Of a stretch of 64,000 nucleotides of DNA, positions 3,866-58,221 are shown piece by piece. The translations under genes were made by a program, and so were the position numbers. The DNA comes from Acanthococcus lagerstroemiae (lineage: Eukaryota; Arthropoda; Insecta; Hemiptera; Eriococcidae), in NCBI GenBank assembly GCA_031841125.1, contig CM063110.1, positions 17,479,626-17,543,625 on the forward strand, read 5' to 3'. Below the pieces are notes generated by a model. It had not been told where the DNA came from. It searched no databases and saw only the letters and a list, made by a program, of their open reading frames with translations. Positions within the stretch are counted from its first letter, which is position 1. Each line of letters begins with the position of its first letter.

Positions 3866-3869
3866 TCAC

Positions 3870-4300: not shown

Positions 4301-4439
4301 AACTAAAATTATCAGGAAAACAGGTAGAAGGAGGGAAAGGAGAAAGAAATTGGAAAACGTCACTCCCTATGCAGATTCTCACCTGCATACGGAATGAGAA
4401 GGGTAAAGGGAAAGTAGCTCGGTGCGTTCCTACATAATC

Positions 4440-8560: not shown

Positions 8561-8715
8561 AATATAAAAACCCACCCCCTGTAACCTTTTGTGGAACCAA
8601 AGTAGTATAGATAGCTGCATCTCCTCCTTTCTGCCAGTCTTTCCCCATATTTTCTAACTTCCGACTCGTTTTTAAATATTTTTCATTATTACTTATCATT
8701 TTTTAAACATTTTCT

Positions 8716-9119
8716 GGGTGTTCTCCCTTATAAATACATTTTATTAAAAAAGTCAATTTAATTTATATGTGTGTATTGGGGGGGGGGGAGACAAAACTCT
8801 TAAGGCGCCGCACCACTCCAAATGCCCGGGAATAATTTTAGCGCTCATCCGCCCCTGGTATTACTATCGTGGCTCACATCTGGCCTAAATGTAGTAATTA
8901 GCGATACTAAACATTCTTTCGCTCGTTTGATCTTTCAGTTTTTTTTTTATTTTGGGGAAGGAGTTCTCAGAGGATTTAGGGGAGCCCTCAACTCAAATCT
9001 CAAAGGAGCTATAATGGGGAGGAGAAAAACTCAATTTTTGTTGCAAAACCGAGTGGGGTTTCTAAATATTTGTTTTTTACCACCCTAAACACATTTCTGA
9101 AGTATATTGTTCAAAGTGT
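8716..9119. other. Non-coding spacer with G-run
   Basis: AT-rich and G-rich low-complexity segment separating two parts of the RTE-A remnant. It contains a run of 9-10 G near 8778. No TIRs recognised. Confidence 0.3.
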
Positions 9120-9340
9120 GAAAAAGGGCTCCAGGGAGGGGGAGGCGAGAATTTTACTGCTGGGGATTGACATATGATATGGATCGAGGTTTCTTCCTCT
9201 TTTCCACAGTACCTACAGGAGCCGCTTCTTACTTCTCCTATCTTTTACCACTTGTGTTTTGTGGCCCTATGGCCGGTTAGTAGTCCAACCATGAGCCTTG
9301 CATATTTCCTGTCAAGCCCTAATAAGAAAGGTTGGATATA
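9120..9340 (-). mobile_element. C-terminal fragment of the RNase-H LINE family; unoccupied FB-1 target
   Basis: On the minus strand this reads ARLMVGLLTGHRATKHKW and then CRYCGKEEETSIHIICQ. This is the Cys/His knuckle and tail shared with the LINE at 56700-60193. It is valuable because the same nucleotide site (ATATGGATCGAGGTTTCTTCC, near 9178-9198) is uninterrupted here. In the 57 kb copy it is split by a foldback element, giving a pre-insertion reference. Confidence 0.75.
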
Positions 9341-9569
9341 ACTTAGCACTCTATTCCCTACAGTCTTGTACATAATAATATTTGTACGTACGTCTGCTTG
9401 CCCACTTTCCGCCGCTGTATTAATTATTCTATACTCCCTCGTTCAAAAATAATTTTCTTCTGGCCACCTCACTTCACTAATCCCTACTATATCTAATTTT
9501 GATCTTTTCATCTCTTTTTTAAAGTTTTCTAACTTAACTACCTCATTTTGTAGCCTTACATTCCATGCA
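9330..9569 (-). mobile_element. RTE endonuclease N-terminal fragment
   Basis: Minus-strand frame beginning WNVRLQNEVVKLENF... and continuing with LDIVGISEVRWPEENYF. These are the N-terminal endonuclease motifs of RTE elements (the WNVR box and the catalytic E in SEVRW). It is probably the missing 5' portion of RTE-A at 5985-8715, displaced by later insertions. Confidence 0.7.
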
Positions 9570-9808
9570 GAGGCGAAACTTGACTTTCAGTTTGGAGGGG
9601 GGGGGGGGTGGAGAAGGAAAATTTGCCGACAAAATTTTCTAAAAATTCGCCGATTTTTCAATCAAACTTTTTTTTAATTGGAAAAAAAATAATAATGAAC
9701 AAACAAACAAACGTTCTTAGAAAGTGAAAAATTCAAATAAACAGTTTCGAAATTTGCTAACTGCTTAATTATTGGGGGTGTTTCAGCCCCTCTCTATAGT
9801 TTCGCCCC
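9570..9808. mobile_element. MITE with GAGGCGAAACT ends
   Basis: A 239 bp element starts GAGGCGAAACT and ends AGTTTCGCCCC, an imperfect TIR, and is flanked on both sides by TGCA. It interrupts the RTE endonuclease coding sequence immediately beside the WNVR motif. The interior has a long G-run and no ORF. The superfamily is uncertain. Confidence 0.6.
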
Positions 9809-9819
9809 TGCAAATGCAG

Positions 9820-10600
9820 ATTCGAACCTTATCCCCCAAGCACTCACATCTGCGCCCATGAGCATACCCTATTCTGGGAGGGTAAGGTGGAAGGATGTTC
9901 GGAATACTTGAGAGAAACACACAACTTCCTTTATACATTGAGGTGGTCGTTGTTTACTCTTGGTGATTGTTTTTTTCTGAATTTCCTCTGATTCTTCTCC
10001 TAAATTGATTCCAATAAAATCAAATCAAATAAATAAATTTAATTTTAAAAAAATACTACAAAGTTTCTTGTTGCTTGGATTAGGGGAATCCGGGTCAGAA
10101 GTTCCCTTTCATTCTTATCGGGCCGTACAGAGCTAGTATCGACTACTCTTATCAGCGACCAAAAGGTGAAGTTTTTGACACATGTAGCAGAATTTTGGAA
10201 TCTAGGTGTAAAAATTGTCCTAATCGAAAGAAAATTCTTTGTTCGAAAAATTCGTTTCTCTTAAATACTTCAAACGCGTATTAATTTTCGAGATATTTCA
10301 ACTTTAATGAGTACAATGGAGAAAATGTATAGATTTACCTTTATTTGCTACTTATCTCTTCGACTCGATAGTGACGCGCTCTGACGGATGTATGTATGGC
10401 CCGAATATTCACCAGGACCAAAGACCGTAAATTAAACAATAGAACATTTGCTATCGGATTCAGCTTGTGACATTGGAAGATAAGTCTTTTGCTTTCAACT
10501 TTTAAATTTTAATAAAATGTTCAACTTCCTCAAATTTCAGGCTCTAGGTCAAATAGAGAATCTAGTAAGAACAGATTTCGGGCTGCTCAAAGCGATGGTG
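9820..10600. other. Non-coding; part related to the 52 kb TIR element
   Basis: Mostly AT-rich and featureless. About 10490-10580 (TTCAGGCTCTAGGTCA context) is the inverse of about 52660-52765 inside the TIR element at 52026-52794, so this is probably a diverged fragment of that family. Confidence 0.45.
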
Positions 10601-10609
10601 CGCTGTAGT

Positions 10610-11415
10610 CGTTTACGAATGAGTGAGTGAGTTGAATCACTGACTCATTGAGTAAGTGACGAAGTGAGGAAGTGAATGAATAAATGACTGAGTGAGTGAG
10701 TGAATCACTGCGTGACTGAGTACGTGATTGAGTAACTGTGTGAATGACTGACTGAGTGAATCATTAACTCATTGTGTGAGTGATGGAGTGAGGAAGCGAA
10801 TGAATAACTGAATTAGAGAATGAATGAATAACTGAGTAAGTGAGTGAACCACCGAATAGGTAAGCGAGTGACTGAGTGAATCACTGACTTATTGGGTAAG
10901 TGGTGGTGTGAAGAAGTGAATGAATGACTAAATTAGAAAATGAGTGAATGCCTAAGTAAGTGAGTGGAATCACTGAATCACCGAGTAAGTGATTGAGTAA
11001 CCGAGTAAATCAATAAATAAGTAAGCGAATGCCTGAGTGAGTGAGTGAATCACTGACTTATTGAGTGAGTGGCGGAGTGAGGAAGTGAATGAATAACTAC
11101 ACTGCAGAATTAGTACTGAGTCAGTAAGTGAATTACTAAATGGAGTAAGCGAGTGACTGAATGAATCACTGAGTCACTGAGTAAATGATTGGGTTCAACT
11201 GTGTGAATATCTGAATAAGTAAGCAAGTAACTGAGTGAATCACCAAGTCATTGAGTACTGAGTAAATGATTGAGTGAATCGCTGACTCATTGAATGAGTG
11301 ACAGAGTAACTGAGTGAATAACTTAATAAATAAGCGAGTGACCGAATCACTGAGTCATTGAGTACGTGAATGAGTAACTGTGTGAATAACTGAATAAGTA
11401 AGCGAGTGACTAAGC
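10610..11415 (+). repeat. TGAG/TGAA/TGAC-type tetranucleotide array
   Basis: About 800 bp built almost entirely of 4-base steps of the form TGAN or AGTN. Longer phrases such as AATCACTGACTCATTGAG recur at irregular 60-130 base spacing, implying a higher-order unit. The array is diverged, so it is not a young microsatellite. No coding function is apparent. Confidence 0.8.
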
Positions 11416-11479
11416 CTTAAAATTAGCCGACTGCCAAATTCTTTTGGGTGGGTGGGGAGGGGGTTCAACCCCCACACCC

Positions 11480-11986
11480 CCTATAGTTTTGCCCCCTGAT
11501 TTCCCTATTCTCAATTCTGGTAGTTTCTCACTAGGTAGTCAATCTCCACCCGGACATCCGAATGGAAGACTTTTTACTTTCAGAATTATCATTTCCACTT
11601 TGTGGGTTGTGACCATAACTGTGGTGGTGGAGACACATCTGCAGGAAAGAATACTGATGTAATATCCCCTTAGTTTCATCTGGGTTTAGTTTTCCTTCTC
11701 CGATGTGCCTTTAGCTTTAAGCCCCTCACCACGCCAAGGTAGCACACACAAACAGGGAATCTCGTTTTTTAAATTCCCCAATTTGCCTACCTCATTCAGT
11801 GTCCTTTCATTCCATGTCCTTATTCTCCGTGTACGAGTAGAAGTAGTCTCCGCCCGGACATCCGAATGGGAGGCTTTTTACGTCCAGAATTACGAGTATT
11901 ATTTATTTTGTGAGTTGCCAACATAATTGTGACGGCGGAGACAGATCCTCCGAGGAAGAATACTGATGTAGTTTCCCCTCTTGCCT
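11480..11986 (+). repeat. Tandem ~315 bp repeat, interrupted by FB-2
   Basis: The phrase CCCGGACATCCGAATGG occurs near 11550 and again near 11853, about 305-315 bp apart, with matching downstream text (AATACTGATGTA near 11650 and 11959). The second unit is cut at 11989 by FB-2 and resumes at 16795 (TCATCTGTCAGAGGTGCC...CACCACGCCGAGG), paralleling the first unit at 11676-11735. Confidence 0.65.
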
Positions 11987-12413
11987 TCATAGTCCAGGAG
12001 AATTAGCATTTTTGATGGAATTAATTGCAGCACAGCTGAAACTTGGTACGATTATTTAGTACCCTCTTCGGAAAAGCCCTGTAATTTCCCCCTCCCCCGG
12101 TGTGAGCATCACCCCTCAGAGTTCAAAAAGTGCCCCCGGATACAGTTTTTGGCTTGTATCTAGTTTAAAATTGAGTTATAGGTAAAAATATTCCGTACCA
12201 AAATTAAAGAACGTAAAATTCTCTACAAAAATGGTATCTATGTTTTTTTTTTCGTGAATCCCATGCCAACCAAGATAATCGGCGTTCAAGATCACACGAG
12301 CATGTAAATATGGAGTAACCTACAACGTACGCGGTATAGGAACGCTGAAATAATCGCTAAAACACATGACTGGATGCATAGAATGTTACTTGATATAATT
12401 TCAATTTATTGTC

Positions 12414-12417
<4 letters not shown>

Positions 12418-12449
<32 letters not shown>

Positions 12450-12450
12450 A
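12418..12450 (+). repeat. (ATT)n microsatellite
   Basis: About ten uninterrupted TTA/ATT triplets lying just inside the left arm of FB-2. Confidence 0.9.
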
Positions 12451-12739
12451 GAATTCATCTTCATCCGAGTCTACATGTATACAATTTTCTGCGTTTAAAC
12501 AACCTCCTCTACAAACGTGTGGCTACAAGAGATACTCACTTTACGGTAACCACAAGTTCGTGATCCCAATGCGGAAAACTTAAGTTCGTGTAAACCCGCT
12601 CGAGACCCTTGGGAAATCGACCCTCGTTAGCCCTGTCTGAACCCGGTATGTTTCCCTCCAGCAGCCAATCAGAGCGCTCCATTCGAGGGGAGCCATCAGG
12701 TTAGACAATCACAGTACTTCATTTACGTGTAGCCTTCTC

Positions 12740-13060
12740 ACTACCCGAGCTATACACTGGCGTTGAGACACCCGTGCTATACCCTTTATGGTATGCCCTT
12801 TGTAGACTCGTCGTATAGCCCCTCTGTATGCCTCTAAGTATCCCCTTTGTAAACTGTCGTATAGCACCTCTGTATACCCGTTATGTATGCCATTTGTGGA
12901 CTCGTCGTATAGCCCCTCTGTTTCCCCTTGCATGGATCCCCTTTGTAGACTCGATGTATATTCCTTTGTTTCCCCTTGCATGGACCCCTTTGTAGACCCG
13001 TGGTACAGCCCTTCCATATCCCCTCCGTAAACCCGGGTAGATCCCCTCTTGTAATTCAGA
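12740..13060. repeat. Minisatellite, ~60 bp related units
   Basis: Phrases such as CGTATAGCCCCTCTGT, CCCCTTTGTAGACTCG and TTTCCCCTTGCATGGA recur several times with substitutions. Read on the minus strand it gives a long open frame of repeating GSMQGETxGLY-like peptide. The frame is most simply a by-product of a unit length divisible by three. Located in the FB-2 interior. Confidence 0.6.
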
Positions 13061-13619
13061 TACATATAAGAAGGGATGTTAAAAAGTTCGAACATCCCTT
13101 CTATCATGCTGCACTCGCGATTCCCTCGATTCTTTATGCTGAGTACTCGTTTCTGGTTGACAGTTTGTGAATTTTTCCAAACCTTAGCAAAGATGAAGCA
13201 TATGACAGGGGCACTAAGAATCCATTGCTGTAAAACGCTATAGGTAACACCGCGTCGACGAGTCAGTCCGCCTGCACTCTTCAGAATTCGCCATGACTGT
13301 TTGTTCGATTCGCGTTTGGATGCTAAAGAGTCGCTCTCTAGCGGCCTAATGAAATGCGGCGCGCTGATTGGTGTATTTGGACGAGAAGATGATCAGGGAC
13401 AAAAATGTTCTGCAAAAAAATTCAAGTTGGGCTCATCTGAAAGGAAATGATAAGGGCTGACACTTTAGTTCTCTTCAATACTGAAAATGCTAGGAGCTCA
13501 TTTCACATGTACATGTTTTGGTGGTAAAAATACCTGGGTCTTATTTTCGTCCACTACACTAGCGCACCTACAGGAGTGTCCAAATGCCAATAGTATAGTC
13601 ATGTCGCTCCATCTGTTGT

Positions 13620-13800
13620 CTATTCGGACTTCCCAAGATTCAACAGAACCTTATCAACGTTAGGATTACATGAGGTGCTAGGCATTGTTTACGTACAGTG
13701 TATCCTAACGTTGATAAGAATTCTATGGCACTATTTCCTGAAGTGCGGAAAGGGAGGAAGGCCGGATGCTAGCGCGCCATCGGTCTGGGAAGTCCGAATC
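13620..13800. repeat. Nested inverted repeat in FB-2 interior
   Basis: TTATCAACGTTAGGATTACA (about 13649-13668) pairs with TGTATCCTAACGTTGATAA (about 13698-13716). Further out, CGGACTTCCCA (13625) pairs with TGGGAAGTCCG (13787). The two nested stems could be the ends of a small hairpin element. No ORF of note. Confidence 0.55.
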
Positions 13801-14259: not shown

Positions 14260-16577
14260 TTTTATTATTATTATTAGCACTAGTTAACACAGTTAGTTAA
14301 TAGCATTTTTATTTTGTTTTGTTAGGTAAAGCCCTATTTTGGGCGAATGCCTCCCTCAACCTCTCCCATTCGGCCCGGTCATTGGCTATGCGGTGGAACA
14401 GTCTTGTTTTCAAGATTCTCCCCGAAGGGTAAATTACCTTTATGAAGTTATAGAAGTCGTCTGACCACCTGGCCTTCTGCGTACCCCGCCTTCTTACTTT
14501 CATAGGTTGCCAAAATGTAATTTTTTGAGTCCAGCGATCGTGCTTCAGTCTACCCAAATGGCCTGCCCAATCCCATTTCAACCTTCTGACAAAGTGTATG
14601 ATGTTTTTGTTTCGCTTGAATTTTTCTTTGATTTTTCCTACCCTTACTTTGTCTTTCAGTTTTATTCCGAGCATGGCTCTCTCCATTGAGTTCTGGGTAG
14701 TTTGAAGTTTTCTTTCTAGCCATGTTTGGCAGCCATAGGTGAGTGCTGGAAGAACGCAGTTGTTAAAAAGATGGCTCTTATATCTTAGTGGGTAACTATT
14801 TTTCAGAATGAGTTTTGAACTCCAGAATTTTTTCCAAGCTATTGCGATCCTCCTATTGATTTCCTTTTCCATTTGATTTTGAAATGAAACTGTTTGCCCT
14901 AGATATATAATACTATCGACTATTTCAATTTTTTTGTTTTCAATGTTGATATCTTCCAAAAGTCCTGAATTTGTGAGGATTTTAGTTTTAGATAGGTTGA
15001 TTTCCATACCTGCTAATTTACTTTGGCAGTTGAGTTCCTCCAGCATCTCTTGCAAGTCTTCCCAGGTCCCAGCCATCACTGTCAAGTCGTCCGCAAATCT
15101 CAAATTATTTAGAAAGTCACCGTTAATATTAACTCCTTTTTTTTCCCAATTTAAGTTTTTGAATATTTCGTTTAGTGCACAATTGAACAGCAGTGGTGAG
15201 ACCGGGTCCCCTTGCCTCACCCCTCTTTTGATGTCGAACTCCTCGCCTTCGACATCAGTGATAATCTGCGCTTTCAGATTGGTGTACATTTCTTTTATGA
15301 TTCCGATCATGGAGGGGTGAGCCCCATGGCTGGCCAAGGCCTTGAGCATGTAATTATGTTTTAAGAGGTCGAAAGCCTTGGTGAAATCTATGAAGGCCAG
15401 GTGGACAGTGACCCGGTATTCCGTTGCTTTTTGCATGAGCAGGTTGACCGCATGGAGGTGGTCGGTCGTGGAGAAGCCCCTCCTGAAGCCTGCTTGGCAG
15501 GGGGTTTGTTGCAGCTCAAGCATCCCTCTTAGACGGAAGTCCAGCAGAGCAGACAAAATTTTTGCCAGGATTGGGATCAAACTTATTGGTCTGAAGTTTT
15601 TGATGTCGTAACGACATCCTTTTTTGTAGAGTAAAATAATTTTTGAAGTTTTCCATTCTGGTGGGATAACTTTTGATACTAGAATTTCGTTGTAAAGAGT
15701 TGTTAACGTTTTTATCATTTTTTCTCCTCCATATTTAATTTGCTCGTTAGTGATCCCATCGTGCCCTGCGGCCTTGCCGTCCTTGAGAGCCAGCACTGCT
15801 CTTCTTATTTCGCTTTCGGTGAAACTTGGTAGTTTTTCTTCCTCTTCCACCATTTTTAATGGTTCTGAGTACTCCGAGTTGTCAGAATAGAGCGTCGTGT
15901 AAAATTCTGTGGCTATTTTGTTAATTTGGCGCCTCTCATACTGTTTTATACCTTCCTGGTTTTTTAAACACGTCATGAGACTACTGCATGTCGCGCTATC
16001 CTTCTTAATTTTTTTTTGTGCTTTTGGAGTCTTCCATGACTGAAGTTACACTATCTCGGATATTCTTTTCTGATTAAACTCTCTCAGAAGTTTATTAATT
16101 AGTTTGCAAATTACATTTAGCTCTATTCTGTTTTCCCTCGAGTTTGGCGCTCTATTTAGTCTTTCTCTTTTGTCAATTAGTTCCCTAATATTTTTCGGAA
16201 GTGCTAGCGAACGCTTTTCAGAATCTGGTGGAGGGAGGTTTTCTGTTGCTGTTTTTATTATTTTTTTGAGCTGTTCCCAGCTGGGGGGCTCCCCACTTTC
16301 CGCCATCTCCCCTGGTCTCTGCTCCACTTCCTTCTGGTATTCGAGTTTATTTGCACTGTTGACTTTTTGTGGGGGGAGTTTCTCAATCGGTAAGAACCTT
16401 TTTTTTTCTCATGTCTATTTCACAGTAAATGAGGCGATGGTCGGAGTGGAACTGGAAATTTTTCAGGGTATCGAAATTGCGTATATTCTTAAATGTTTCT
16501 GGTGGGGCCAGAATATAGTCGATTTGTGATTTGAACCCATAGTTGGGCGCACGCCAGGTCCATCTCTTCCCCGCTCT
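14260..16577 (-). mobile_element. 5'-truncated RTE-clade LINE (RTE-C) with target duplication
   Basis: Insertion bounded by GAATATTTTT at 14250-14259 and 16578-16587. The 3' end on the minus strand terminates in TAATAATAATAATAAAA, a simple-repeat tail as RTE elements have. The 5' end is truncated inside the endonuclease. It sits in the right arm of FB-2, so it is younger than that element. Confidence 0.9.
14309..16577 (-). pseudogene. RTE-C endonuclease/reverse transcriptase polyprotein, nearly intact
   Basis: The end of the endonuclease comes first (RWTWRAPNYGFKSQIDYIL..., SDHRLIY). After it a frameshift lies in an A-run near 16400, then 93 open codons, one TAA stop at 16046-16048, and 555 open codons to the natural stop at 14309. 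The RT motifs are intact: GHDGITNEQIK, NFRPISL, QAGFRRGFST, LAFIDFTKAFD, GVRQGDPVSPLLF and the catalytic FADD (near 15100). The C-terminal RTE tail follows (CVLPALTYGCQTW..., WAGHLGRL). Of the LINE copies here it is the least damaged: one frameshift and one stop, plus 5' truncation. Not active. Confidence 0.85.
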
Positions 16578-20194: not shown

Positions 20195-21616
20195 ATAATC
20201 ATAATCACCTTTATTGTTAATAAATTCTTATTAATATCTACAACTGTATTTCCATTTCCGATTTGGAACCCGGATCAGGGCTCACGCAGTTATTCCCGGC
20301 CCATGAAGAGCAAAGGTTTCTTGCAACCGATCCCATTCTTGCCTGTTTTTTAAAATTTTTTGATAATTTTGCGTTTTTAGGAATTTGTTAAAGTCGTCCT
20401 TTCACCTTAGTTTTTAACGCCCCTTTTTCCTCTTGTAGTTTAGAGGTTGCCAAAAGGTGGCTCTGTAGGTCCATCGGTCGTCCGTGAGGCGGGAGACGTG
20501 CCTTGCCCACTTCATTTCATGCGACGGATGTGCCTTATTACGTCAACGTTATGTCTCAGTTTGCTCCTTATCGTTTCTATTTTAATACGATCTTTTTCCT
20601 TAATACCTAGTATGGAGCGTTCCAAGGAGTTTTGGGTAGTCCTTATTCTATTACGGATTTTTTCACTTAAGGTCCAGGTTTGGCATCCATATGTTAACGT
20701 TGTGACTACATATGCGTTAAAAATTTGACTTTTGTGGGTGAGATTGAAGGGGCCTTTGAAGATTTCTCTTAGTGACCAGTATTCGGCCCAAGCTTTAGTG
20801 ATTCTTGTATTAATTTCTTTTTCCATTTGTTTTGTGAAAGCTATTTTTTGGCCAAGATAAGTCCTTTCGCTTGCTGTGCCTAAAATTTTTCCATCTATTT
20901 CTATTGGTTTTAGTTTTTATCTTTAGTTAATACTATTGTTTTCTGAGCGTTGATATGAAGTCCTGCTTTTGCACTGTATTCACTCAATTCGTTTATCATT
21001 TCTACTAGTTCTATTTCTGATTCGGAAAATAGGGTGACATCATGAGCGAATCTTAAATTTATGATTTTTGTAATATTCATGTTCAGTCCTTTTTCTCTCC
21101 CAGTTTAAGTTTCTCAATATTTGATCAAGTGCGTAGTTAAAAAGGATCGACGATAGTGGATCTCCTTGGCGAAGTCCTTTTTTAATTTCAAAGTAGTGTC
21201 CTTTTATATCCGTTTTTATCCTTGCTTTTAATCCTTTGTACATTTCTCCTATTAGTTGGATATTTTTTGATGGGACCCCTTGGTTTTTCAACGCTGATAT
21301 CATAAAGTCGTGTCTTATGGAGTCAAATGCCTTACTATAGTCTATTATCCCAATAAAAAGATTTGTATTGTATTCGTTGCTTTTTTCTATGATTTGATTA
21401 ACTGTATGTATATGGTCCACAGTTGAAAAGGATCTGCGAAAGCCTGCCTGCTCTATTGGTTGTTGTTCTAATAGAATGGGTCTGGGTCTGTTTTCTATTG
21501 CTTTTGATAAAAATTTTGCTACAGTAGGGCTGAGCGTTATGGGGCGATAGTTTTCCACTTTATGTCTATCTCCCTTTTTAAATATTATTATTATATTCGA
21601 AAATTCCCAGTCTGCT
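20195..21616 (-). mobile_element. 3' half of RTE-B LINE, left of FB-1
   Basis: Minus-strand RT palm, thumb and C-terminal tail of an RTE element: FKKGDRHKVENYRPITL, QAGFRRSFSTVDH, IDYSKAFDS, GLRQGDPLSSILF, then TLTYGCQTWTL and a terminal HGPGITA before the stop near 20290. The 3' end has ATTATGATTATGAC repeats near 20200. The active site reads FAHD instead of FADD (near 21040), and frameshifts occur near 20826 and 21040, so it is dead. The other half continues at 27714 across FB-1. Confidence 0.85.
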
Positions 21617-22122
21617 AGGTGCATTTCCTCGGCCCCCCCACTTACCCAGATAGACTTGAAACATACGCCATTCGTTTGTGCTACGTTTGTGCTGGTTTGT
21701 GCTGAAAACCCCATCGTTTGTGCTGCTCCCCTTCCTGAGATATTCGAGAAAACTTTTGGGGGGGCTGTAGAAACGGGAGCCCCCCCACTTTCTCCTAGGG
21801 GATCAAAAATGGTGTCAATCGTTTGTGCTACGTTTGTGCTGGTTTGTGCTGAAAACCCCGTCGTTTGTGCTGCTCCCCTTCCTAAGTTGTTGAGGTTTAT
21901 TTTTGGGGGGGCTGAAGAAATGGTCTTTGAAAAAGTAGTTAGATAAAGAGTTGAAAGGGGAAAAGTGGATGCAATAGTTTGTGCTCCGTTTGTGCTGGTT
22001 TGTGCTGCCATCCATAATCTCCTATACCCCATAGACCCGTCGAGAGGGGGCTCTTTGTCGTACAGTAGGATACAAATCAGGTTTGCCTGAAAATTAAGGA
22101 GTAGGCAAACATATGTAAGCAA
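21040..22122 (-). other. Chimeric ORF joining FB-1 arm to RTE-B reverse transcriptase
   Basis: A 360-codon open frame starts inside the FB-1 left arm (MLTYVCLLLNFQANL...). It then runs through three blocks of AQTSTN-type peptide encoded by the GCACAAAC subrepeats, crosses the element end at 21617 and continues in frame into RTE-B RT (ADWEFSNIIII...). It is probably fortuitous, as the repeat peptide has no recognised domain. Homologous openings occur in the other arm (27209-27649) and in FB-1b (57543-57857), where they shift frame. Confidence 0.5.
21670..22015. repeat. GCACAAAC-type terminal subrepeats (left), mirrored at 27310-27660
   Basis: Clusters reading CGTTTGTGCTACGTTTGTGC followed by TGGTTTGTGCTG begin at 21673, 21820 and (as AGTTTGTGCTCC) 21976, spaced 147 and 156 bp. 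Each cluster holds three to four copies of the octamer GTTTGTGC. The same set is mirrored in the right arm and in FB-1b. Such clustered octamers could bind a transposase or host protein; that is inference. Confidence 0.8.
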
Positions 22123-22454
22123 TAAGGGAATGCGATAGAAAAGTTGTTTCTGTGTTTATTAGCTCAATTATTTTGCCGAAGTTTGTTTCATACGTACCTA
22201 GACCCACTTACTTACATAATTCATTTATGGACATGAATTTATTAATTATTATTGTCGTTACAGCGCACTGATATTTTCACCAAAACATTATTATTCAAAC
22301 GAACGCTAAAATCTAATATGTCTTGATTTTCACCAAGATCAAATCACTTGCTCAGTTACTTAATTACTTCAAAATTTAGTTTTTTTTTTTTTTTTTTTTT
22401 GGTTGTTAAGAATGAATTTTGAAAATTCATAACAGTGCTACTAGCTGCATTGCG

Positions 22455-23000
22455 CCTCATTTGGGTCTACTGTCATTACACCCTCTTACAAAATCTGCAT
22501 TTCCCGCTCCGTGGTCCTTTCATTCTTTTCGGCTCTTACCATATTTTTGTGCAGTCAACTTAATTGTGCGTTTCGCGGATTATAAGGTAATGACGACCTG
22601 GACCATCTTCCATCTTCGGTCATTCACCTTCTTTTCAAAACTATATTCTTTCACTGTGGCGTGTTTTTTATCGCTTTCGCTTGTGCCACCTTTTTGTGTG
22701 GAATCAAATTAATCTTACTTTCGGCGGATTATAAGGTCCATGACTTTCCGGGCCATCTTGGTCTACTGTCATTACACCCTCTTACAAAATCTGCATTTCC
22801 CGCTCCGTGGTCCTTTCATTCTTTTTGGCTCCTAACATCTTTTTGTGTAGTCAAATGAATCTTACGTTTCGTGGATTATAAGGTTCACGACTTCCTGGAC
22901 CATCTTCCATTTTTGGTCATTTCTCCCTCTTTCTGAAACTATATAATATATTCTTTCGCTCTGTCTTTGATACTGCCTTTTTAGACTATTCTTTCAAAAA
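22455..23000. repeat. ~148 bp tandem subrepeats in FB-1 left arm
   Basis: The GTCATT-type landmark recurs at 22474, 22621, 22770 and 22918 (steps 147, 149, 148). Each unit also carries GGATTATAAGGT and a CCATCTTCC/TTGG phrase, giving three and a half diverged units. The 97-codon frame through them is a product of the repeat, not a gene. Mirrored at about 26330-26880. Confidence 0.8.
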
Positions 23001-23346
23001 TGACATTTTCGCCTAAAATTGACGATTTTATATACGTATTGGGACTACGTCGGGTGGAAATTCAATTTTCGAAACTATTTCGTCAGTTTCTAATTTTTCA
23101 AGAAAAAATTTTTAATTTTTAATTTTTTGAGAAAACCGTTTTTAAAAATCCATTTTACTTGAAAATAAACTTTGAAAAATTGTACCACCCTTATTATTTG
23201 CTGCAATAAAGTACTTATTTTGATGTAAAATTGTTACATTGCACATAGTTTGGGAGGAATAGAAATATAAACATTAGGTTCAGTTTTCCAAGACCTTTAA
23301 TTTGATATCATTAAAGCCATAGTTTTACCGGGACTTTTTGAGACTG

Positions 23347-24134
23347 CAGTAGACTTCCAATTATCCGCCCGAATTGGGCCTACAGATTGGGCGGATAACC
23401 TGAAAACATGTAATTTTGATAAGAAAAAGATTGAGAAAGGGAGGAAAACCATTTATATTGAATTAGTTACGTAAGGTAATAAGTTATTTTATACAAAAAA
23501 AAACTTCAATATTAAAAAAAAAATCGGCAATTTTAGCCTTTTTGATCAGTGGGGGAGGGGGCAACATTGTAAAAAAACAACTAAAAACAGTCAGTTCATT
23601 TTTTTTTTTAATCTGTAGTTTTTCTTTGCTTCTTCATGATATGCCGCTCTTTTCAGCAGCATAATTTCTCTACTTTCTTTGTGAATTTCATAATCTGCAG
23701 CAGTAATTACTGGCTGTTGTTTAAACACCAGTAACTTTCCCAATGCTGAAAAAGCACTGTCATAATGTGTATCAGCCTTGGGCTTACTTACGAGCACAAC
23801 AAGCGCACCGGATGGGAGCAGCCGATTTTGAGGGGTGGCCGAATTTTGAGAATGAGCTTTTTTCTAAGGTGGATGTTGGATAGGAACAGATACGAAAAAA
23901 AATTTCCGGCTAGGCAGTCGAGGGCCCCGAGTGCTTGTAACCGACCTTCATCATAATCCGGGGCTGATCCATATGTACTGACTGATGCATCTCCTACCCG
24001 TTCTTGATCATAATTATTATCAGGTGTGCTAAGGACTGAAGTTGTGATTTTAGTGAGATTTTGGACGGATAAATTCGTGGCGAGAACAATCTGGAAAGTG
24101 GATAAACCAATGGCGGATTATCGGGAGTCTACTG
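23347..24134. mobile_element. Pogo/Tigger-like non-autonomous element inside the FB-1 arm
   Basis: Starts CAGTAGACTTCCAATTATCC and ends with the inverse of CAGTAGACTCCCGATAATCC, the style of TIR found in Tigger/pogo elements. TA follows on the right and TG precedes on the left, so a TA duplication with one change is possible. A minus-strand frame (23797-23591) ends KRAAYHEEAKKNYRLKKKMN and might be the C-terminal rag of a transposase. That match is weak. Its far end persists at 26070 in the other arm. Confidence 0.6.
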
Positions 24135-24858
24135 TACTCCTTTTTTTTTTTTTTTTTTGAGACTATTTCATTTTTATAGGGATTTTTATAGACTCTTCAA
24201 GTCTTTTTAGAGACTTTTAATACGACCTTTTTTTGAGTTTTGAGCGCCTAAAAATCCGAGCCTTGATGATAATCTTCAAGGATTTAACAACATTAAAACG
24301 GTTAACGAGCAAAACTTTTATTGGGTATCTGTAAGAACCGTATCTGTTGTATGTTTGTAATTTAAGCCCATTTGCCTCTCTTTTTTCCACTGCACGAATT
24401 TTTTATTGAAACCTTGAAATTCATTGATTAGTCTTTTCTCCAGGGAGAGCATAGCAAAGGGCAATAGGCGTTTCTCTTCCATTGTGTTTCTTATAAAATT
24501 TTGATTCTTTCTACTCGTACATACAAGAAACGTCTTTCAACTTCGTCAGATGACATTAGCATCATTATATAAAATTTTCAGAAGCTTAATAAATTCATAG
24601 AAATAAGTACCTATTCAGAATATCCTTAAGGAAGAAGTACCGTAAATCAGTTGTTTTTACACTTTAGAAATCTTGCCTTTCATAGATTATTTTCAGTTCA
24701 ATCTTCAATTTTTTTTCATGAAGGATGGAATAGCATGCCACTGTATTCTTCAATAGTTAATTCGCCAGAGATTTTTGTTTTTTTCAAATTTGAAAAATCA
24801 AACAAATTAGCCACAAGCGAATGCCCGGTGTAATTAAATCTGTCAGTAATTTCGCAAA

Positions 24859-25344
24859 TTATGATATCGCATTCACGCGAATGTCGGATATCGGAATGAT
24901 ATCGTGCCGATATCAGTGTCGGTTGAATATCGGACGATGAGCATAAAGATACACGTTTAAATATTGATGCTTTATGTTTTACATTGAAGAATTTTCCAGA
25001 TTCGTACAAGCGCGAAAAATAATATTGTGATACAACAGACATCAGGAATCATGTTTTCGAAATCACTGAATTCGTTTTTCACCTGTTAACCCCTAGGTAG
25101 AAATTTGGATCCCATCGGGAAAGGGGGCGACAGGCAAAAAATGCATTAAATGTAATATGCGTATCGTTTCGCAGGGTTTTGGGGCCGTAAAATTCATGTA
25201 CCGATTTTCAGATTACCGTGAAAATTGAGGGACCTGTAGTGGGGCGAGGCTGAAAATAAGAATAAATAAACAATTTGGAAGTGGATTTCATTTTTTCTGT
25301 TTTCGAGATGATTTTTCGAATTTGAGCTTCAGTCAAGAGGAAGC
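24859..25344. other. Unique centre (loop) of FB-1
   Basis: 486 bp with no inverse partner. It contains several GATATC/CCGATATC motifs (24860-24940). A minus-strand frame of 108 codons spans loop and left arm (25042-24716) but has no recognisable domain. The loop may have been captured from host DNA. Confidence 0.7.
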
Positions 25345-27713
25345 TTTGCGAAATTACTGACAGATTTAATTACACCGGGCATTCGCTTGTGGCTAATTTG
25401 TTTGATTTTTCAAATTTGAAAAAAACAAAAATCTCTGGCGAATTAACTATTGAAGAATACAGTGGCATGCTATTCCATCCTTCATGAAAAAAAATTGAAG
25501 ATTGAACTGAAAATAATCTATGAAAGGCAAGATTTCTAAAGTGTAAAAACAACTGATTTACGGTACTTCTTCCTTAAGGATATTCTGAATAGGTACTTAT
25601 TTCTATGAATTTATTAAGCTTCTGAAAATTTTATATAATGATGCTAATGTCATCTGACGAAGTTGAAAGACGTTTCTTGTATGTACGAGTAGAAAGAATC
25701 AAAATTTTATAAGAAACACAATGGAAGAGAAACGCCTATTGCCCTTTGCTATGCTCTCCATGGAGAAAAGACTAATCAATGAATTTCAAGGTTTCAATAA
25801 AAAATTCGTGCAGTGGAAAAAAGAGAGGCAAATGGGCTTAAATTACAAACATACAACAGATACGGTTCTTACAGATACCCAATAAAAGTTTTGCTCGTTA
25901 ACCGTTTTAATGTTGTTAAATCCTTGAAGATTATCATCAAGGCTCGGATTTTTAGGCGCTAAAAACTCAAAAAAAGGTCGTATTAAAAGTCTCTAAAAAG
26001 ACTTGAAGAGTCTATAAAAATCCCTATAAAAATGAAATAGTCTCAAAAAAAAAAAAAAAAAAAAGGAGTACAGTAGACTCCCGATAATCCGCCATTGGTT
26101 TATCCACTTTCCAGATTGTTCTCGCCACGAAATAATAAGGGTGGTACAATTTTTCAAAGTTTATTTTCAAGTAAAATGGATTTTTAAAAAACGGTTTTCT
26201 CAAAAAATTAAAAATTAAAAATTTTTTCTTGAAAAATTAGAAACTGACGAAATAGTTTCGAAAATTGAATTTCCACCCGACGTAGTCCCAATACGTATAT
26301 AAAATCGTCAATTTTAGGCGAAAATGTCATTTTTGAAAGAATAGTCTAAAAAGGCAGTATCAAAGACAGAGCGAAAGAATATATTATATAGTTTCAGAAA
26401 GAGGGAGAAATGACCAAAAATGGAAGATGGTCCAGGAAGTCGTGAACCTTATAATCCACGAAACGTAAGATTCATTTGACTACACAAAAAGATGTTAGGA
26501 GCAAAAAGAATGAAAGGACCACGGAGCGGGAAATGCAGATTTTGTAAGAGGGTGTAATGACAGTAGACCAAGATGGCCCGGAAAGTCATGGACCTTATAA
26601 TCCGCCGAAAGTAAGATTAATTTGATTCCACACAAAAAGGTGGCACAAGCGAAAGCGATAAAAAACACGCCACAGTGAAAGAATATAGTTTTGAAAAGAA
26701 GGTGAATGACCGAAGATGGAAGATGGTCCAGGTCGTCATTACCTTATAATCCGCGAAACGCACAATTAAGTTGACTGCACAAAAATATGGTAAGAGCCGA
26801 AAAGAATGAAAGGACCACGGAGCGGGAAATGCAGATTTTGTAAGAGGGTGTAATGACAGTAGACCCAAATGAGGCGCAATGCAGCTAGTAGCACTGTTAT
26901 GAATTTTCAAAATTCATTCTTAACAACCAAAAAAAAAAAAAAAAAAAAAAACTAAATTTTGAAGTAATTAAGTAACTGAGCAAGTGATTTGATCTTGGTG
27001 AAAATCAAGACATATTAGATTTTAGCGTTCGTTTGAATAATAATGTTTTGGTGAAAATATCAGTGCGCTGTAACGACAATAATAATTAATAAATTCATGT
27101 CCATAAATGAATTATGTAAGTAAGTGGGTCTAGGTACGTATGAAACAAACTTCGGCAAAATAATTGAGCTAATAAACACAGAAACAACTTTTCTATCGCA
27201 TTCCCTTATTGCTTACATATGTTTGCCTACTCCTTAATTTTCAGGCAAACCTGATTTGTATCCTACTGTACGACAAAGAGCCCCCTCTCGACGGGTCTAT
27301 GGGGTATAGGAGATTATGGATGGCAGCACAAACCAGCACAAACGGAGCACAAACTATTGCATCCACTTTTCCCCTTTCAACTCTTTATCTAACTACTTTT
27401 TCAAAGACCATTTCTTCAGCCCCCCCAAAAATAAACCTCAACAACTTAGGAAGGGGGGCAGCACAAACGACGGAATTTTCAGCACAAACCAGCACAAACG
27501 TAGCACAAACAATTGACACAATTTTCAATCCCCTAGGTGAAAGTGGGGGGGCTCCTGTTTCTACAGCCCCCCAAAAGTTTTCTCGAATATCTCAGGAAGG
27601 GGAGCAGCACAAACGATGGGGTTTTCAGCACAAACCAGCACAAACGTAGCACAAACGAATGGCGTATGTTTCAAGTCTATCTGGGTAAGTGGGGGGGCCG
27701 AGGAAATGCACCT
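25345..27713 (-). repeat. Right arm of the FB-1 palindrome
   Basis: 2369 bp, the inverse of the left arm. Single-base differences are rare (for example CCATGGAGAGC against CCAGGGAGAGC near 25755/24440). Only the outer ~62 bp of the Tigger-like element remain here (26070-26130), joined directly to AATAATAAGGGTGG. The right arm therefore suffered an ~875 bp deletion after the palindrome formed. Confidence 0.9.
26330..26880. repeat. ~148 bp tandem subrepeats in FB-1 right arm
   Basis: Inverse copy of the left-arm array, with the same units, order and spacing, so the tandem array predates or was copied with the palindrome. Confidence 0.8.
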
Positions 27714-29363
27714 CAGTCAGCTGGTGTTTTACCCGAATCTAGGATCTTGTTGAATAGTTTTGTTAGTATTAATATCATTTCCTCTCCCCCATTTTTATGT
27801 TTTCATTGGTTATATTGTCATGGCCTGGACTTTTCCCTGGTTTCAGTTGGTCAACTATTGCTTTAATTTCTTTTTCGAAGAAATATGGTATTTCTCATTT
27901 TTCTTTGTAGTTGAAGTTGCAGTATTTATCGTCGTCGTATAATTTTGCATAATACTTCGTTATAAATTTGTTTATTCTTTTTCTATCGCAGATCCTTTCT
28001 CCTTGGGAGCCTATAAAGTGCGAAGTCCATTGCAGCGAGACATGTTTGTTTTTTCATTTTTTTAATATTTTTATTTGTTTCAATAGTTGTTCTGATGATA
28101 TCATTTTTTACCAGGAGATTTTCTCCCTCAATTTCTTACAGATTAGGTTTGAAACTTCGTTTAGTTCTGTTTTCTCTCTTGCCTCTTTCCTTCTAGTCCC
28201 TAAGAGTTGAGACATTTTTTAAAGTAATAGTTTGATATCATCCTTGATTTTTTCCACCTTTGGATTTTTTCTTTTGTTTACTACCGTTTCGTCTGTTGTA
28301 TTTTTTTGAGTGTATTTTATTATTCCTGTTATTGATTTGTACAGTGCTTCTATACTGGTTTCGACTTTTAATCCTAATTTCAGTTCTGCTATTTGTTCCT
28401 TCAACTCTTGTTGATATTTTTGGGGATTAATTTTTCCGTCGCCTTTGCTGTTCTTATTGCTAAATTTGATGTGCTTTTCAGTGTGCATTGCTATTGTTAT
28501 TAGTCGGTGGTCTGAATTATATTCGAATTTATTTTGAATGTCGAAATTTACTATTGATTTGTTTTCTACTGGGGTTATTATGTAGTCTATCAGGGTTTTA
28601 TATTCTTGGTTTGGTGAGATCCGTGTCCATCTTTTTTCTTTCCTTTTTTTGAAGAAACTCTATGAACTATTTTTAGATTGTGTTCTTGGCAAAATCTTAA
28701 GAGTTTCTAGCCTCTTTCGTTCCTGTTCTTGAATCCAAAATTGCCCATTGTACTACTCTCGTATTTTTGTTTTTGACCTACTTCGCTATTCCAGTCCCTC
28801 ATTAGTATGAGGTTCTTTCTTTTGCTGTTTTGCTCGTGTATTACTATTTCATCCACTTGTTCATAAAATTTATCTATTTCTTCCTCTTCGGCTGTGGAGG
28901 TGGGGGCGTAAACCTGAAGACATGTTACAATTGTTTTTTGGAATTCCATTTTCAGTATGGCTATCCTGTGAGAGATACCTCTTATTTTTTTTATTAAGGG
29001 TTGATAATTTGCTTTTATTAAAAAACCTTCTCCTTTTTGACCTTCGTTGTTACCAATGTGGTATAGCAGATTTCCTTTCTGGGTGACGTGGATTTTCTCC
29101 CCTCTTCTACGGACTCCCGACAGACCTACAATCGCCATGTTGGAATGCATGAATGCCTTCTCCAGTTCGATTAGGTTTTCAGGGGTACGGAGTGTTCTTA
29201 CGTTTATTGTGCCTATTTTTATTTCTGTGCGTTCAAATTTGGATTTGTTTAGCAAAAGTTTTTTGTTTTTGTTTTTGTTTTTAAAATGAGGGGTTTTCTC
29301 AACTGAGTTTTTCATATTATCGTCTTTTGCCAGTGAAAATTTTTGTGTTTTGAGTCCATGCAC
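27714..29363 (-). mobile_element. 5' half of RTE-B LINE, right of FB-1
   Basis: Minus-strand continuation of RTE-B. The endonuclease lies at about 29290-28710, linker sequence follows, and the start of RT ends LTKLFNKILDSGKTPA at the FB-1 junction (27722). Stops and frameshifts are present in the linker (28650-27730). Confidence 0.85.
28707..29363 (-). pseudogene. RTE-B AP-endonuclease domain, catalytic residues altered
   Basis: 218 open codons. Motifs in order: KIGTINVRTLRT, the region normally reading SEVRR that here reads LSGVRRRGE (the catalytic Glu replaced by Gly), FLIKANYQPLI, TCLQVYAPTSTAEEEE and LILMRDWNSEVG (usually GDWN). The domain is complete to about the GxxGFKNRNERG segment, then breaks. 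The altered Glu implies loss of nicking activity. Confidence 0.8.
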
Positions 29364-29366
29364 AAT

Positions 29367-31020
29367 TACTCACAGAAAATGAGAATTTTCTAAAAGAAAT
29401 TTGCGTCTCCTTTTGGAATTAAAATTTTGGCTAAGAAATTAATACATACTTGGAGAGGGAGGGGGCAGTGTGGCCGAAAATTTTGAAAATTCTTCAATTA
29501 TGCGCGAATTTGAATTCGTAGTCTTATTGCGTTATTGGCCATTAAATTGAGAAATTTGTGAAAAAATTCGCGTCGTCTTTTCATTTTTGAATGGCAGCTG
29601 AATGATTAGTTCTTATTTGAAAGCGGGGAGGGGGCTGTTTGTGACCAAAAATTTAGAAAATTGTTCGGTTTGGGCTCGTATCTGAGTGCAATTGCACACC
29701 AGAACTGAGAATTATCTGAAAAAAATTCTCGTAGTTTTTTAAATTTAGAATTTTGGCTGAATAATTAGTTCATGGTTCAGGGCGGAAAGGGGCTGTATGC
29801 AATCAAAAATTTTGAAAATTCTCCAGTTTAGGTGCGGATCTGAATTCTTGTCCACCAAAATTGAGAATTTCCTGAAAAATATTTGAGTCGCCTTTTAAAT
29901 TTTAAATTTTTGCTAAGAAATCAGTACATACTTGAAAAAAAAGGGGGGCACTGTGACCAAAAATGTTGAAAATTCTCCAGTTTGGGCTCGGATTTGAATT
30001 CTTAGCTTTATTGCTCAGGTACCCGCCAAAATTGAGAAATTTCGGGGGGAAATTGGCGTCGCTTTTTGGATTTAAAATTTTGGCTGAATAATTAGTTCAC
30101 AACTAACCGAGCGGGGGGGAGGGAGCGTTATTTGACCAAAAATTTTGAAAACTCCGGTTTAGGCACAGATCTGAATTCTTAACATTCTGCCGCAGTTATA
30201 TACACAAGAAAGGGGATTTTCTAAAAATTATTCGAGTCGCCTTTTGAATTTGAAGTTTTGGCAGAAAAATTACCGCATACTGAAAGGGGGTAATGTGACA
30301 GAAAATTTTGAAAATTCTCCAGTTTTTAGGCACGGATCTGAATTCTTAGCCTTATTGCGCAATTATGCACCGAAAATGGGAAATTACTGAAAAAATTCGC
30401 GTCGCTATTCAGTTTAAAATTATGGCTGAATAATTAGTTTACAGTTAAGAGCGGAGAGGAGGTTGTACGTGAGAAAATTTTTTTTAATTCTCTGGTTTAG
30501 GTGCGGATCTGAATTTTTAACATCCTTGTGTTGTTATACTAAGACTGCTATAAGAACGGGTAGAGGAGGGCCAACGTTGCCTGCTGAATACACGTAGCCT
30601 TATCGAGTTTTCACTGATTTTTTCGTTTACCGTTGAGTATCTCGAGAAATTTCGAATTACAAGTAAAATGAGAGAGAGTAAAAATTGTAGCTCATAAAAT
30701 TTCCTTTCAGTTGAGCCCATTTAAAATGGAATCCATGCAGTGACTTTCGAATTACGGTATTCTACAGCCCTAGTTATACCACAAAAATGAGAATTTTCTG
30801 AAAAAGAAATTCACATCGCCTTTTGAATTTAAGATTTTGGCTAAATAGTTAGTTCATAGTTAGCTATGAAGTAATTATTCAGCTCAATTTTAAAAATGAA
30901 AGGGCGACGCCATTTTTTCAGAAATTTCCCATTTTGGTGGGTAATGGCACAACAATGCTAAGAATTCAGATACGTGCCTAAACCGGAGTATTTCCCGGAT
31001 TTTTGGTTATATTACCCCCT
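29367..31020. repeat. ~165 bp diverged tandem array, last unit inverted
   Basis: A unit reading GAGAATTTTCTGAAAAAAAT, TCGCGTCGCCTTTTGAATT, TTTGGCTGAATAATTAGTT, GACCAAAAATTTTGAAAAT, GGCACGGATCTGAATTCTTAG recurs at about 29377, 29548, 29703, 29852, 30028, 30202, 30372 and 30790. At 30890-31020 the same text appears in inverse orientation (GGGCGACGCCATTTTTTCAG...). The structure is an array closed by an opposite-facing unit. A MITE interrupts one unit. Confidence 0.8.
30539..30773. mobile_element. 235 bp MITE in the tandem array
   Basis: Interrupts a unit of the array. Ends CTAAGACTGCTATA and the inverse of CTAGGGCTGTAGAATA give a short imperfect TIR, flanked by TTATA on both sides (30534-30538 and 30774-30778). 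No coding content worth naming. Confidence 0.6.
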
Positions 31021-31024
31021 TCAA

Positions 31025-31820
31025 GTATGAACTAATTTAAACTTAGATTTTCAAGTGTTGGTAGCCCTGTATATATGTGTGAGTGATTATGTACGATTTA
31101 CCTCAAGCGTGTAGCAAACTTCAACTATCATTAAGTCGATTAGAAATCCACTTTCAAAGAAAATTTGTCCTAAATTTAACTGCATCATCTCCAAAAAATT
31201 GAATTATAATTAGTTCTACTGGTAGAATAAGTTGTACTCGTTTTTTTAACCTCCTGAAGATAGTAGTTTTTCTATTTGAAAGTATACATGATCACTCACT
31301 CATTTTCACCCGCTAACACCCGCGCAGGTAATTCTGCAGCGCACTCTAGTGCAGATTTAAATACCAATACACTGTAGGGTATCTACTGAGGTCGAAAAAA
31401 ATTGACTAGGTAGTGGGAGACTTATGGGTTTCACTTTCGGATTTTAGACGCGTTTTTTTCAGTTTTGCATGTTCAATACTCGATGAAGTTTTCTATCAAA
31501 AAATTCAAGGGTTTTACTTTCATTTAAGGAAAGTTCTTACTTTCATTTTTTTGAGTTACTTTTAGGTGACTGGGGGGGGGACTTTCTTCAAAATGGGGAA
31601 ATTTTGGAGAACTTGGGGGACCGATAAGACACCTTGTATTACTGTTGAAGCTATATTACAAATTGGGACCCCAGCGAACCAAATAGGGGATTTATGATCA
31701 CTTATATCATGATGTGCATATGGAATTCTTAGGCACTGGTGATCGCTAAATCTACTGAATACCTGGCGTAATAATACCAACCTATGCTGTAATGCATGGC
31801 ATTTTTGCCGCTCAGCTTCT
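31025..31820. other. Intronic sequence, nothing recognised
   Basis: AT-rich. It contains a G-run near 31572. No coding or repeat structure identified. Confidence 0.35.
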
Positions 31821-56660: not shown

Positions 56661-56926
56661 TTTTAAATTCCAGAAGTTTGCCCATGCCTTATTTGATTCA
56701 CTCATTTGTGTGTGAGGTTGCGCCGTGTGCTCAGACTTTGCAGACCATTGCACTATTCCTCAAGTTGCTGTTAAGGATCAGCTCAGTTGCCTCACTTTTA
56801 TAGCCAAAGTGAAAATTTTACTGAGCTCTGTCCCTTTGACTTCATTGGGTGCTGGATACTCCACTCCCAGTGCTTCGCGTCTTGTCCCGGCTATTGCTGG
56901 GCATTGACATATGATATGGATCGAGG

Positions 56927-58192
56927 AGGTGCATTTCCTCGCCCCCCCCCACTTACCCAGATAGACTTGAAACATACGCCATTCGTTTGTGCTACGTTTG
57001 TGCTGGTTTGTGCTGAAAACCCCATCGTTTGTGCTGCTCCCCTTCCTGAGATATTCGAGAAAACTTTTGGGGGGGCTGTAGAAATGGGAGCCCCCACTTT
57101 CACCTAGGGGATTGAAAATGGTGTCAATCGTTTGTGCTACGTTTGTGCTGGTTTGTGCTGAAAATTCCGTCTCTTCCTAAGTTGTTGAGGTTTTTTTTTG
57201 GGGGGGGGGGAGCTGAAGAAATGGTCTTGAAAAAGAAGTAGATAAAGAGTAAAGGAAAATGATGCAATGTTGTGCTCCGTTTGTCTGGTTTGTGCTGCAT
57301 CCTAATCTCCTTGCCATCGACCTCGAAGGGTCTTGTCTACAGAGGATACAATCAGGTTTGCCTGAAAATTAAGGAGTAGGCAAACATATGTAAGCAATAA
57401 GGGAATGCGATAGAAAAGTTGTTTCTGTATTTATTAGCTCAATTATTTTGCCGAAGTTTGTTTCATACGTACCTAGACCCACTTACTTACATAATTCATT
57501 TTTGGACATGAATTTATTAATTATTATTGTCGTTACAGCGCATTGATATTTTCGCAAAACAATTATTATTCTAATTTTCAGGCAAACCTGATTTGTATCC
57601 TACTGTACGACAAAGAGCCCCCTCTCGACGGGTTGATGGGGTATAGGAGATTATGGAGGGCAGCACAAACCAGCACAAACGGAGCACAAACTATTGCATC
57701 CACTTTTCCCCTTTCAACTCTTTATCTAACTCCTTTTTCAAAGACCATTTCTTCAGCGCCCCCCCCCCAAAAAAAAAACCTCAACAACTTAGGAAGGGGG
57801 CAGCACAAACCAGCACAAACGCAGCACAAACGATTGACACCATTTTCAATCCCCTAGGTGAAAGTGGGGGCTCCCATTTCTACAGCCCCCCAGAAGTTTT
57901 CCCGAGTATCTCAGGAAGGAGAGCAGCACAAACGACGGGGTCTTCAGCACAAACTAGCACAAACGTAGCACAAACGATTGACACCATTTTCCATCCCCTA
58001 GGAGAAAGTGGGGGCTCCCGTTTCTACAGCCCCCCCCCCCCAAAAAAAAAAAAGTTTTCTTAAATATCTCAGGAAGGGGAGCAGCACAAACGATGGGGTT
58101 TTCAGCACAAACCAGCACAAACGTAGCACAAACGAATGGCGTATGTTTCAAGTCTATCTGGGTAAGTGGGGGGGGGGCGAGGAAATGCACCT
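56927..58192. mobile_element. FB-1b: short second copy of the FB-1 foldback
   Basis: 1266 bp with the same ends (AGGTGCATTTCCTCG and inverse), flanked by a perfect 9 bp duplication GGATCGAGG (56918-56926 and 58193-58201). The left arm (56927 to about 57570) matches FB-1 21617 to about 22300. The right arm (57573-58192) is its inverse. All deeper parts, including the ~148 bp array, Tigger-like insert and loop, are missing: an internal-deletion derivative. The GCACAAAC subrepeats are present in both arms with small indels. The undisrupted target is seen at 9178-9198. Confidence 0.92.
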
Positions 58193-58221
58193 GGATCGAG
58201 GTTTCTTCCTCTTCTCCACAG

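Follow-up and report, generated by a model that had tools for sequence, protein, structure and literature searches.

Foldback elements such as FB of Drosophila melanogaster are characterized by long, subrepeated inverted repeats and 9-bp target duplications, and natural palindromes of several kilobases are unstable. For Galileo, a Drosophila transposon of the P superfamily, a route towards such structures has been suggested by the authors of PMC3573991, whose passages on repeat growth propose that, when one terminal repeat is broken, the other serves as repair template and copying runs on past its inner edge, giving TIR1-F1-F1-TIR2; secondary transposase-binding sites within the repeats are cited there as well. 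Here we analyze 64 kb of the hemipteran Acanthococcus lagerstroemiae (GCA_031841125.1, contig CM063110.1, positions 17,479,626 to 17,543,625; the window) by computed sequence analysis of the one assembly that holds it (658 Mb in 438 contigs). At 21617-27713 (this copy), the window carries a palindrome that consists of one half of a ~7-kb element and an inverted copy of most of that half. The family to which it belongs is a non-autonomous, foldback-type DNA transposon with AGGTGCATTTCCTCG ends and 9-bp target duplications, and we consider it likely that the palindrome was formed by break repair, its arms being kept alike by gene conversion afterwards.

Comparison of the window with itself revealed inverted matches that together compose a near-perfect palindrome, opening with AGGTGCATTTCCTCGG at 21617 and closing with the reverse complement of AGGTGCATTTCCTCGG at 27713; in the assembly it lies at C5:17501242-17507338. 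A reading made from the letters alone (the sequence-only reading) had described inverse ends and a 486-bp loop, as the self-comparison and the arm alignment confirm, and nearly identical arms of ~2.4 kb. The latter description held in part: the arms differ at 11 of 2,364 aligned bases and by five gaps of 1-2 bp, but the left arm retains an 876-bp block that has no partner on the right. Since this block is also found in L014, a ~7-kb copy 96.3% alike to this copy that we use as a stand-in for the parent, it was lost from the right arm. On L014, whose coordinates are used for all palindrome centres below, this copy lies in three blocks (6980-3260, then 3747-4535, then 5398-6980), and the stretch absent between the last two, 4536-5397, corresponds to the deletion in the right arm. 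At the turn both sequences share 2 bp, and a 30-base pattern spanning it has a single match in the assembly, here, when up to two mismatches are allowed. The left arm also contains a block with CAGTAGACTYCC ends, which we take to be pogo/Tigger-like; being shared with L014, it is not a late insertion into this copy.

The palindrome interrupts a reverse-transcriptase gene. Its flanks carry the 9-bp duplication claimed by the sequence-only reading, CAGTCTGCT and CAGTCAGCT, matching at 8/9 positions, and when they are joined minus one 9-mer, a single minus-strand frame stays open through the junction (...LFNKILDSGKTPADWEFSNIIIIFKKGDRHKVENYRPITL...), in agreement with the restored frame also claimed there. 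The frame at the junction resembles, by eye, the neighbouring reverse-transcriptase open reading frame (ORF) at 14309-15976 (Pfam RVT_1, 1.8e-31), and the joined gene still has frame breaks elsewhere. Near-perfect palindromes are known artefacts in some long-read libraries, and a hairpin read or a mis-joined inverted repeat could produce one; that explanation is nonetheless extremely improbable here, given flanks that are non-palindromic and both continue one interrupted gene, arms that differ by the 876-bp deletion, a target duplication at the ends, and palindromes elsewhere in the assembly with common centres but different duplications.

Within the window, the exact terminal 15-mer is found at four ends alone, two of this copy and two of a second family member at 56927-58192 that the sequence-only reading missed. 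A genome-wide search for the ends with their duplications, which that reading had proposed, yielded 119 matches to the terminal 21-mer (57 forward and 62 reverse), and none to its reversed control. End positions were listed for 100 of the 119, and pairing rests on those 100; among the matches listed there are 34 forward-reverse neighbour pairs of 934-20,699 bp (0.9-20.7 kb). Perfect 9-bp target duplications flank 20 of 22 elements checked, the window's two included, and all 22 reach at least 8/9, with this copy and L015 at 8/9 and a perfect 10-mer in none (0/22); the mispaired-flank control reaches 8/9 in 0 of 462 cases. Two further elements, C7p and C4p, carry TATCAAAAT and CGTAGTTTT, respectively, on both sides and bring the complete elements to 24, while L019 and L022 have a single end inside their 10 kb. 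No clear target consensus was seen among the duplications of the 22 elements compared.

The family combines a target duplication of fixed length with ends that are constant, a constancy partly built in as elements were located via their ends, and with long inverted repeats whose tandem subrepeats vary in number, as is typical of the foldback class. hAT elements generate 8-bp duplications and the P superfamily, including Galileo, 7-8-bp ones, neither of which accommodates the 9 bp found in 22 of 22 elements (two with one mismatch). In 22 elements, the terminal repeats open with 3-5 units, spaced by about 147 bp except for a final interval of ~156 bp, that bear a triple GTTTGTGCT motif, apart from one arm of L021 with one unit and one arm of the short window copy with two. 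Among the 20 elements that exceed 2.6 kb, this motif is confined to the outermost 1.2 kb at either end; its 9-mer core occurs 22 times in this copy, against a single occurrence in the other 56.6 kb of the window, which belong to neither copy. The subrepeats are probable transposase-binding sites.

The largest group fetched (8 of 24: L010, L012, L014, L016, L023, L024, L025 and L028) comprises elements 6.7-7.7 kb long, in which inverted repeats of 0.84-1.37 kb enclose a unique interior of ~5 kb; across most of their length, six are 98.7-98.9% identical to L014, and L024 97.2%. This ~7-kb group is non-coding. ORFs of at least 130 aa were seen in 15 elements only inside terminal or subterminal repeats, plus one of 131 aa in L025, and Pfam searches of 18 element fragments gave nothing above cut-off; remnants of hAT and mariner transposases had been suspected by eye in the interior, and as Pfam lent them no support, we claim neither identity. 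Rfam returned no match at the gathering score, and two patterns had no match among viral contigs, where records from this species' own genome may have been left out. The organization of the ~7-kb group also bears on whether the palindrome is itself the basic mobile unit, as in Drosophila FB. The 9-bp duplications and the long inverted repeats with a varying number of tandem subrepeats would suit such a classical foldback, but with a ~5-kb unique interior between 0.8-1.4-kb repeats in the largest group, and with the centre of this copy occurring once in the genome, we regard this as very improbable. The foldback family proposed by the sequence-only reading thus stands on its constant ends, 9-bp duplications and subrepeated inverted repeats, but the 6.1-kb palindrome is a derivative and not its basic unit.

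Palindromes arose repeatedly in this family. Six centres were recognized: 3260/3747 in this copy, 3685/4527 in L015, 2652/1752 in L017, 2625/1555 in L036 and C7p, 5635/1939 in L027 and C5p, and 2644/3970 in L009 and L013. The arms of the first four all come from one and the same element end, and the shorter ones could derive from the longest by central deletion, whereas the L009/L013 and L027/C5p centres are underivable from any other by one central deletion; we therefore recognize at least three independent palindrome formations, represented by the same-end group and by the lineages of L009 and of L027. L009 and L013 have a common centre junction and different target duplications, as do L027 and C5p (their junctions one A apart, in a run), so some palindromes moved as palindromes. 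The L009 join occurs 10 times in nine elements on six contigs, showing that this lineage multiplied. Much of the palindrome is gone from L011 and L026, which belong to the nine, and C4p contains a pair of L009-type joins, one inverted relative to the other, and thus a palindrome built from a palindrome. The 16-kb L017 (L017+L018, C3:68591622-68607682) has arms of 6.8 kb that are 99.9% alike, and these contain 3.9 and 3.3 kb without match to L014. In C7p (L032+L039, C7:11964121-11973099), the outer arms are 87.6% alike and the inner arms 99.6%, and one tip looks swapped with a divergent copy.

Break repair is most likely the origin of such palindromes, as it fits the homologous tips, the join with little shared sequence, the one-sided duplication and the intact target duplication. 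A broken end carrying one terminal repeat would pair with the other terminal repeat, copy inward beyond it and then be end-joined, so that the outer tips and the target duplication would be retained. This copy may have formed directly by this repair, or the repair may first have produced a longer palindrome from which a central deletion then gave this copy. The second course is a variant that differs in the timing of palindrome formation: this copy would go back to a longer palindrome of the L036/L017 type that existed earlier, its centre and 486-bp loop left by an asymmetric central deletion. Deletion over the L036/C7p turn could indeed give the centres of L017, this copy and L015. Such a deletion probably occurred for L017, which the tree places together with L036 and one of the C7p arms (support 0.98) and which is therefore probably a revised L036-type palindrome. 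The arms of other copies nearest to the left arm of this copy are those of L015 (1.06%) and L036 (1.10%), with L014 and its kin forming a separate group, but the distance to L009 (1.18%), another palindrome lineage, is hardly different, and the branching order near this copy is poorly supported. We hold this variant as a tentative possibility.

In lineages with a common centre, arm homogenisation can be examined by a four-arm count, in which informative sites group the arms either by copy or by side. L009/L013 has 16 informative sites in 3,213 columns, distributed 16:0:0 by copy (10:0:0 without the outer 700 bp), and L027/C5p has 48 in 2,683 columns, distributed 48:0:0 (16:0:0 without the outer 700 bp). 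As all 64 informative sites in the two lineages group arms by copy, the arms of both were homogenised. L020 against L009 and against L013 gave 15/15 and 16/16 by copy, in a comparison that overlaps with the L009/L013 test. The subrepeat count has shifted jointly in both arms, to 5/5 in L027 and 3/3 in C5p, and in deeper segments the arms are nearest to each other rather than to any other copy in 7/7 and 3/4 copies.

The arm differences that persist are clustered. In this copy, nine of the 11 mismatches fall at element positions 159-258, outside of which its arms differ at 2 of 2,264 sites; across positions 131-290, L017, L014 and L025 are the copies nearest to the left arm, and L020 and L011 those nearest to the right arm, which implies separate histories for the tips and a shared one for the interior. 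In C5p, 12 of 13 differences lie inside 109 bp (positions 150-258), and in L013 eight of 11 lie in the inner 731 bp (p = 6e-4, with the boundary picked after looking and three of the eight sitting together). These clusters suit conversion tracts and are also compatible with copying at each move. The latter would follow if palindromes were remade at every transposition, the mobile form being one half (a hairpin or snap-back intermediate) and the second arm being copied from the first. The 64/64 sites by copy are in line with this, as are the arms of L009 and of L027, which differ at one site each over about 3 kb, while copies within one lineage have diverged by 0.6-0.9% across the arms and by 0.8-1.4% across the loop. 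Remaking is nevertheless unlikely: the differences are clustered and not scattered, the outer arms may diverge strongly relative to the inner ones, as in C7p, and unpalindromic ~7-kb copies likewise have near-identical terminal repeats, so a special intermediate is unneeded. We are equally doubtful of a self-palindromising transposon in which each move or repair would template one half on the other, with kilobase palindromes regenerated and homogenised as a life cycle and not by chance conversion.

As for mobilisation, we infer from the 9-bp duplication that a Mutator-like transposase may move the family in trans. This length falls within the ~8-11 bp of Mutator-like groups given in the table of PMC6446971. 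Matches to MULE domains number at least 150 in the assembly. The scored hAT domains include none within the 34 pairs (148 of 150 matches checked), and ends without the C-run occur at 13 places in the assembly and form no pairs. The 20.7-kb copy at C6:36954942-36975640 was considered as an autonomous partner and rejected. It has a perfect duplication and terminal repeats 92% alike, and its extra DNA, at element positions 983-13747, includes a hAT-like ORF (Pfam E 0.0019, below cut-off) and an LTR retrotransposon with LTRs 96.9% alike. Separately, a MULE transposase fragment (PF10551, 1.1e-15; L029 3738-4361) lies 0.6 kb outside the left end of that copy.

Several observations weigh against formation by break repair with later gene conversion and mobilisation in trans. 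The Mutator-like transposase of the sequence-only reading fits the 9-bp duplication, but no MULE domain lies within the 34 paired elements among the 150 scored matches (of 773 candidates), and when one copy was fetched for each of two repeated MULE types, neither showed an end that matches AGGTGCATTTCC with at most one mismatch. The autonomous relative that reading had anticipated, with the same ends and a transposase, was not found in the paired-element and domain searches. Homogenisation is also uneven. In L036/C7p, none of the 3,117 inner columns is informative and the outer 1.1 kb yields 1:1:0, so this pair does not test it, and one C7p tip, with 98 private differences, has been replaced by divergent sequence. 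Over 375 bp of terminal repeat, the arms are closest to each other in six of 17 copies, with seven ties and four closer to another copy. In a tree of ~2.3 kb, sister arms are recovered in six of the nine copies with both arms, and not in L015, C7p and C4p, where repeat contraction has perhaps misplaced letters in the tree projection. The short window copy is not homogenised, and assembly or polishing could inflate arm identity.

Table 1. Features of the two family members in the window and of the interrupted gene.
Feature	Position	Strand	Remark
Left arm, 3,242 bp	21617..24858	+	L014 positions 6980 down to about 3747
Loop, 486 bp	24859..25344	+	single-copy within element; L014 positions ~3260-3746
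Right arm, 2,369 bp	25345..27713	-	arm alignment
876-bp block without right-arm partner	23198..24073	+	arm alignment; also in L014
Block with CAGTAGACTYCC... ends	23347..24134	+	also in L014; right arm retains just the block's end
Three left-arm subrepeats	21674..22007	+	starts 21674, 21821, 21977 (spacing 147 and 156 bp); each with triple GTTTGTGCT motif
Three right-arm subrepeats	27323..27656	-	motif search; mirror the left arm
Internal tandem repeat, period about 147 bp	22464..22907	+	sequence unlike terminal subrepeats; mirror copy 26424-26865
Left 9-bp target duplication	21608..21616	.	CAGTCTGCT; flank comparison
Right target duplication	27714..27722	.	CAGTCAGCT, 8/9 match to left; flank comparison
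3' part of interrupted reverse-transcriptase gene	21040..21616	-	ORF and flank joining
5' part of interrupted gene	27714..29363	-	ORF 28707-29363, endonuclease-like by eye; several frame breaks
Second family member, 1,266 bp	56927..58192	+	inverted arms 88-92% alike; 2 and 4 subrepeats
Left target duplication of second copy	56918..56926	.	GGATCGAGG; perfect 9-bp
Right target duplication of second copy	58193..58201	.	GGATCGAGG; perfect 9-bp

Elsewhere in the window, two more reverse-transcriptase ORFs (RVT_1) are present at 14309-15976 (555 aa) and 46568-47896 (442 aa). Homologues of the first, the neighbouring ORF mentioned above, carry RVT_1 with or without endonuclease domains, and its named relatives are nearly all from insects, including three hemipterans, plus one nematode. 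Beside the 5' part of the interrupted gene, 29376-31038 contains diverged repeats, for which Tandem Repeats Finder reports a period of 158 at 29544-29999 (72% matches), with 74-79% matches reaching beyond that segment. Direct repeats about 305 bp apart at 43266-44027 are 93% alike across 457 bp. A self-inverted repeat of 186 bp (92.6%) lies at 59271-59456, and the neighbouring 59369-59494 matches 9203-9328 at 86.5%.

No description of this family, with its AGGTGCATTTCCTCG ends, was met among the open-access papers listed by the literature searches. Within one genome, three or more independently formed palindromes and several revised centres stand alongside unpalindromic relatives, and two lineages permit site-by-site counts of arm homogenisation. 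The formation of palindromes and the homogenisation of their arms are thus recorded with unusual clarity, which allows models based on break repair, on central deletion and on arm-to-arm conversion to be put to the test. Compared by description only, FB differs from the present family, in whose largest group a 7-kb element carries repeats of modest length. Tm1 of root-knot nematodes, a Mutator/foldback element with a Phantom-like transposase, resembles the present family, as far as the passages of PMC3169594 on its structure go, in its composite inverted repeats of variable length, 9-bp duplications and MITE-like members, and differs in repeat units of ~14 bp, other ends, 93% mean identity within a copy and transposase-encoding members. 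Tetris/DAIBAM of Drosophila virilis and D. americana is an apparently non-autonomous foldback with ~220-bp tandem subrepeats, 8-10-bp duplications and short relatives with common ends, as here; it is set apart by its description in the sections of PMC4079207 on its structure, which give another subrepeat size and inverted repeats of at most 1.7 kb and describe no multi-kilobase palindromes. Galileo of D. mojavensis and D. willistoni is a close precedent, and the growth of repeats by recruiting interior sequence was already suggested there. According to the passages of PMC3573991 and PMC4168063 on copy structure, it shares with this family long terminal repeats, which contain subrepeats in certain groups, the uptake of interior sequence into these repeats, and chimeric copies. 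Repeats within one copy are 98-100% alike in D. mojavensis (PMC3573991), and one D. willistoni copy has repeats of 4.2 and 4.7 kb with fragments of other transposable elements in both (PMC4168063). The two part where Galileo has a known transposase and, in D. willistoni, duplications of 7-8 bp with the consensus GTATTAC (passages of PMC4168063), whereas the family described here has 9-bp duplications without clear consensus and arms of up to 6.8 kb.

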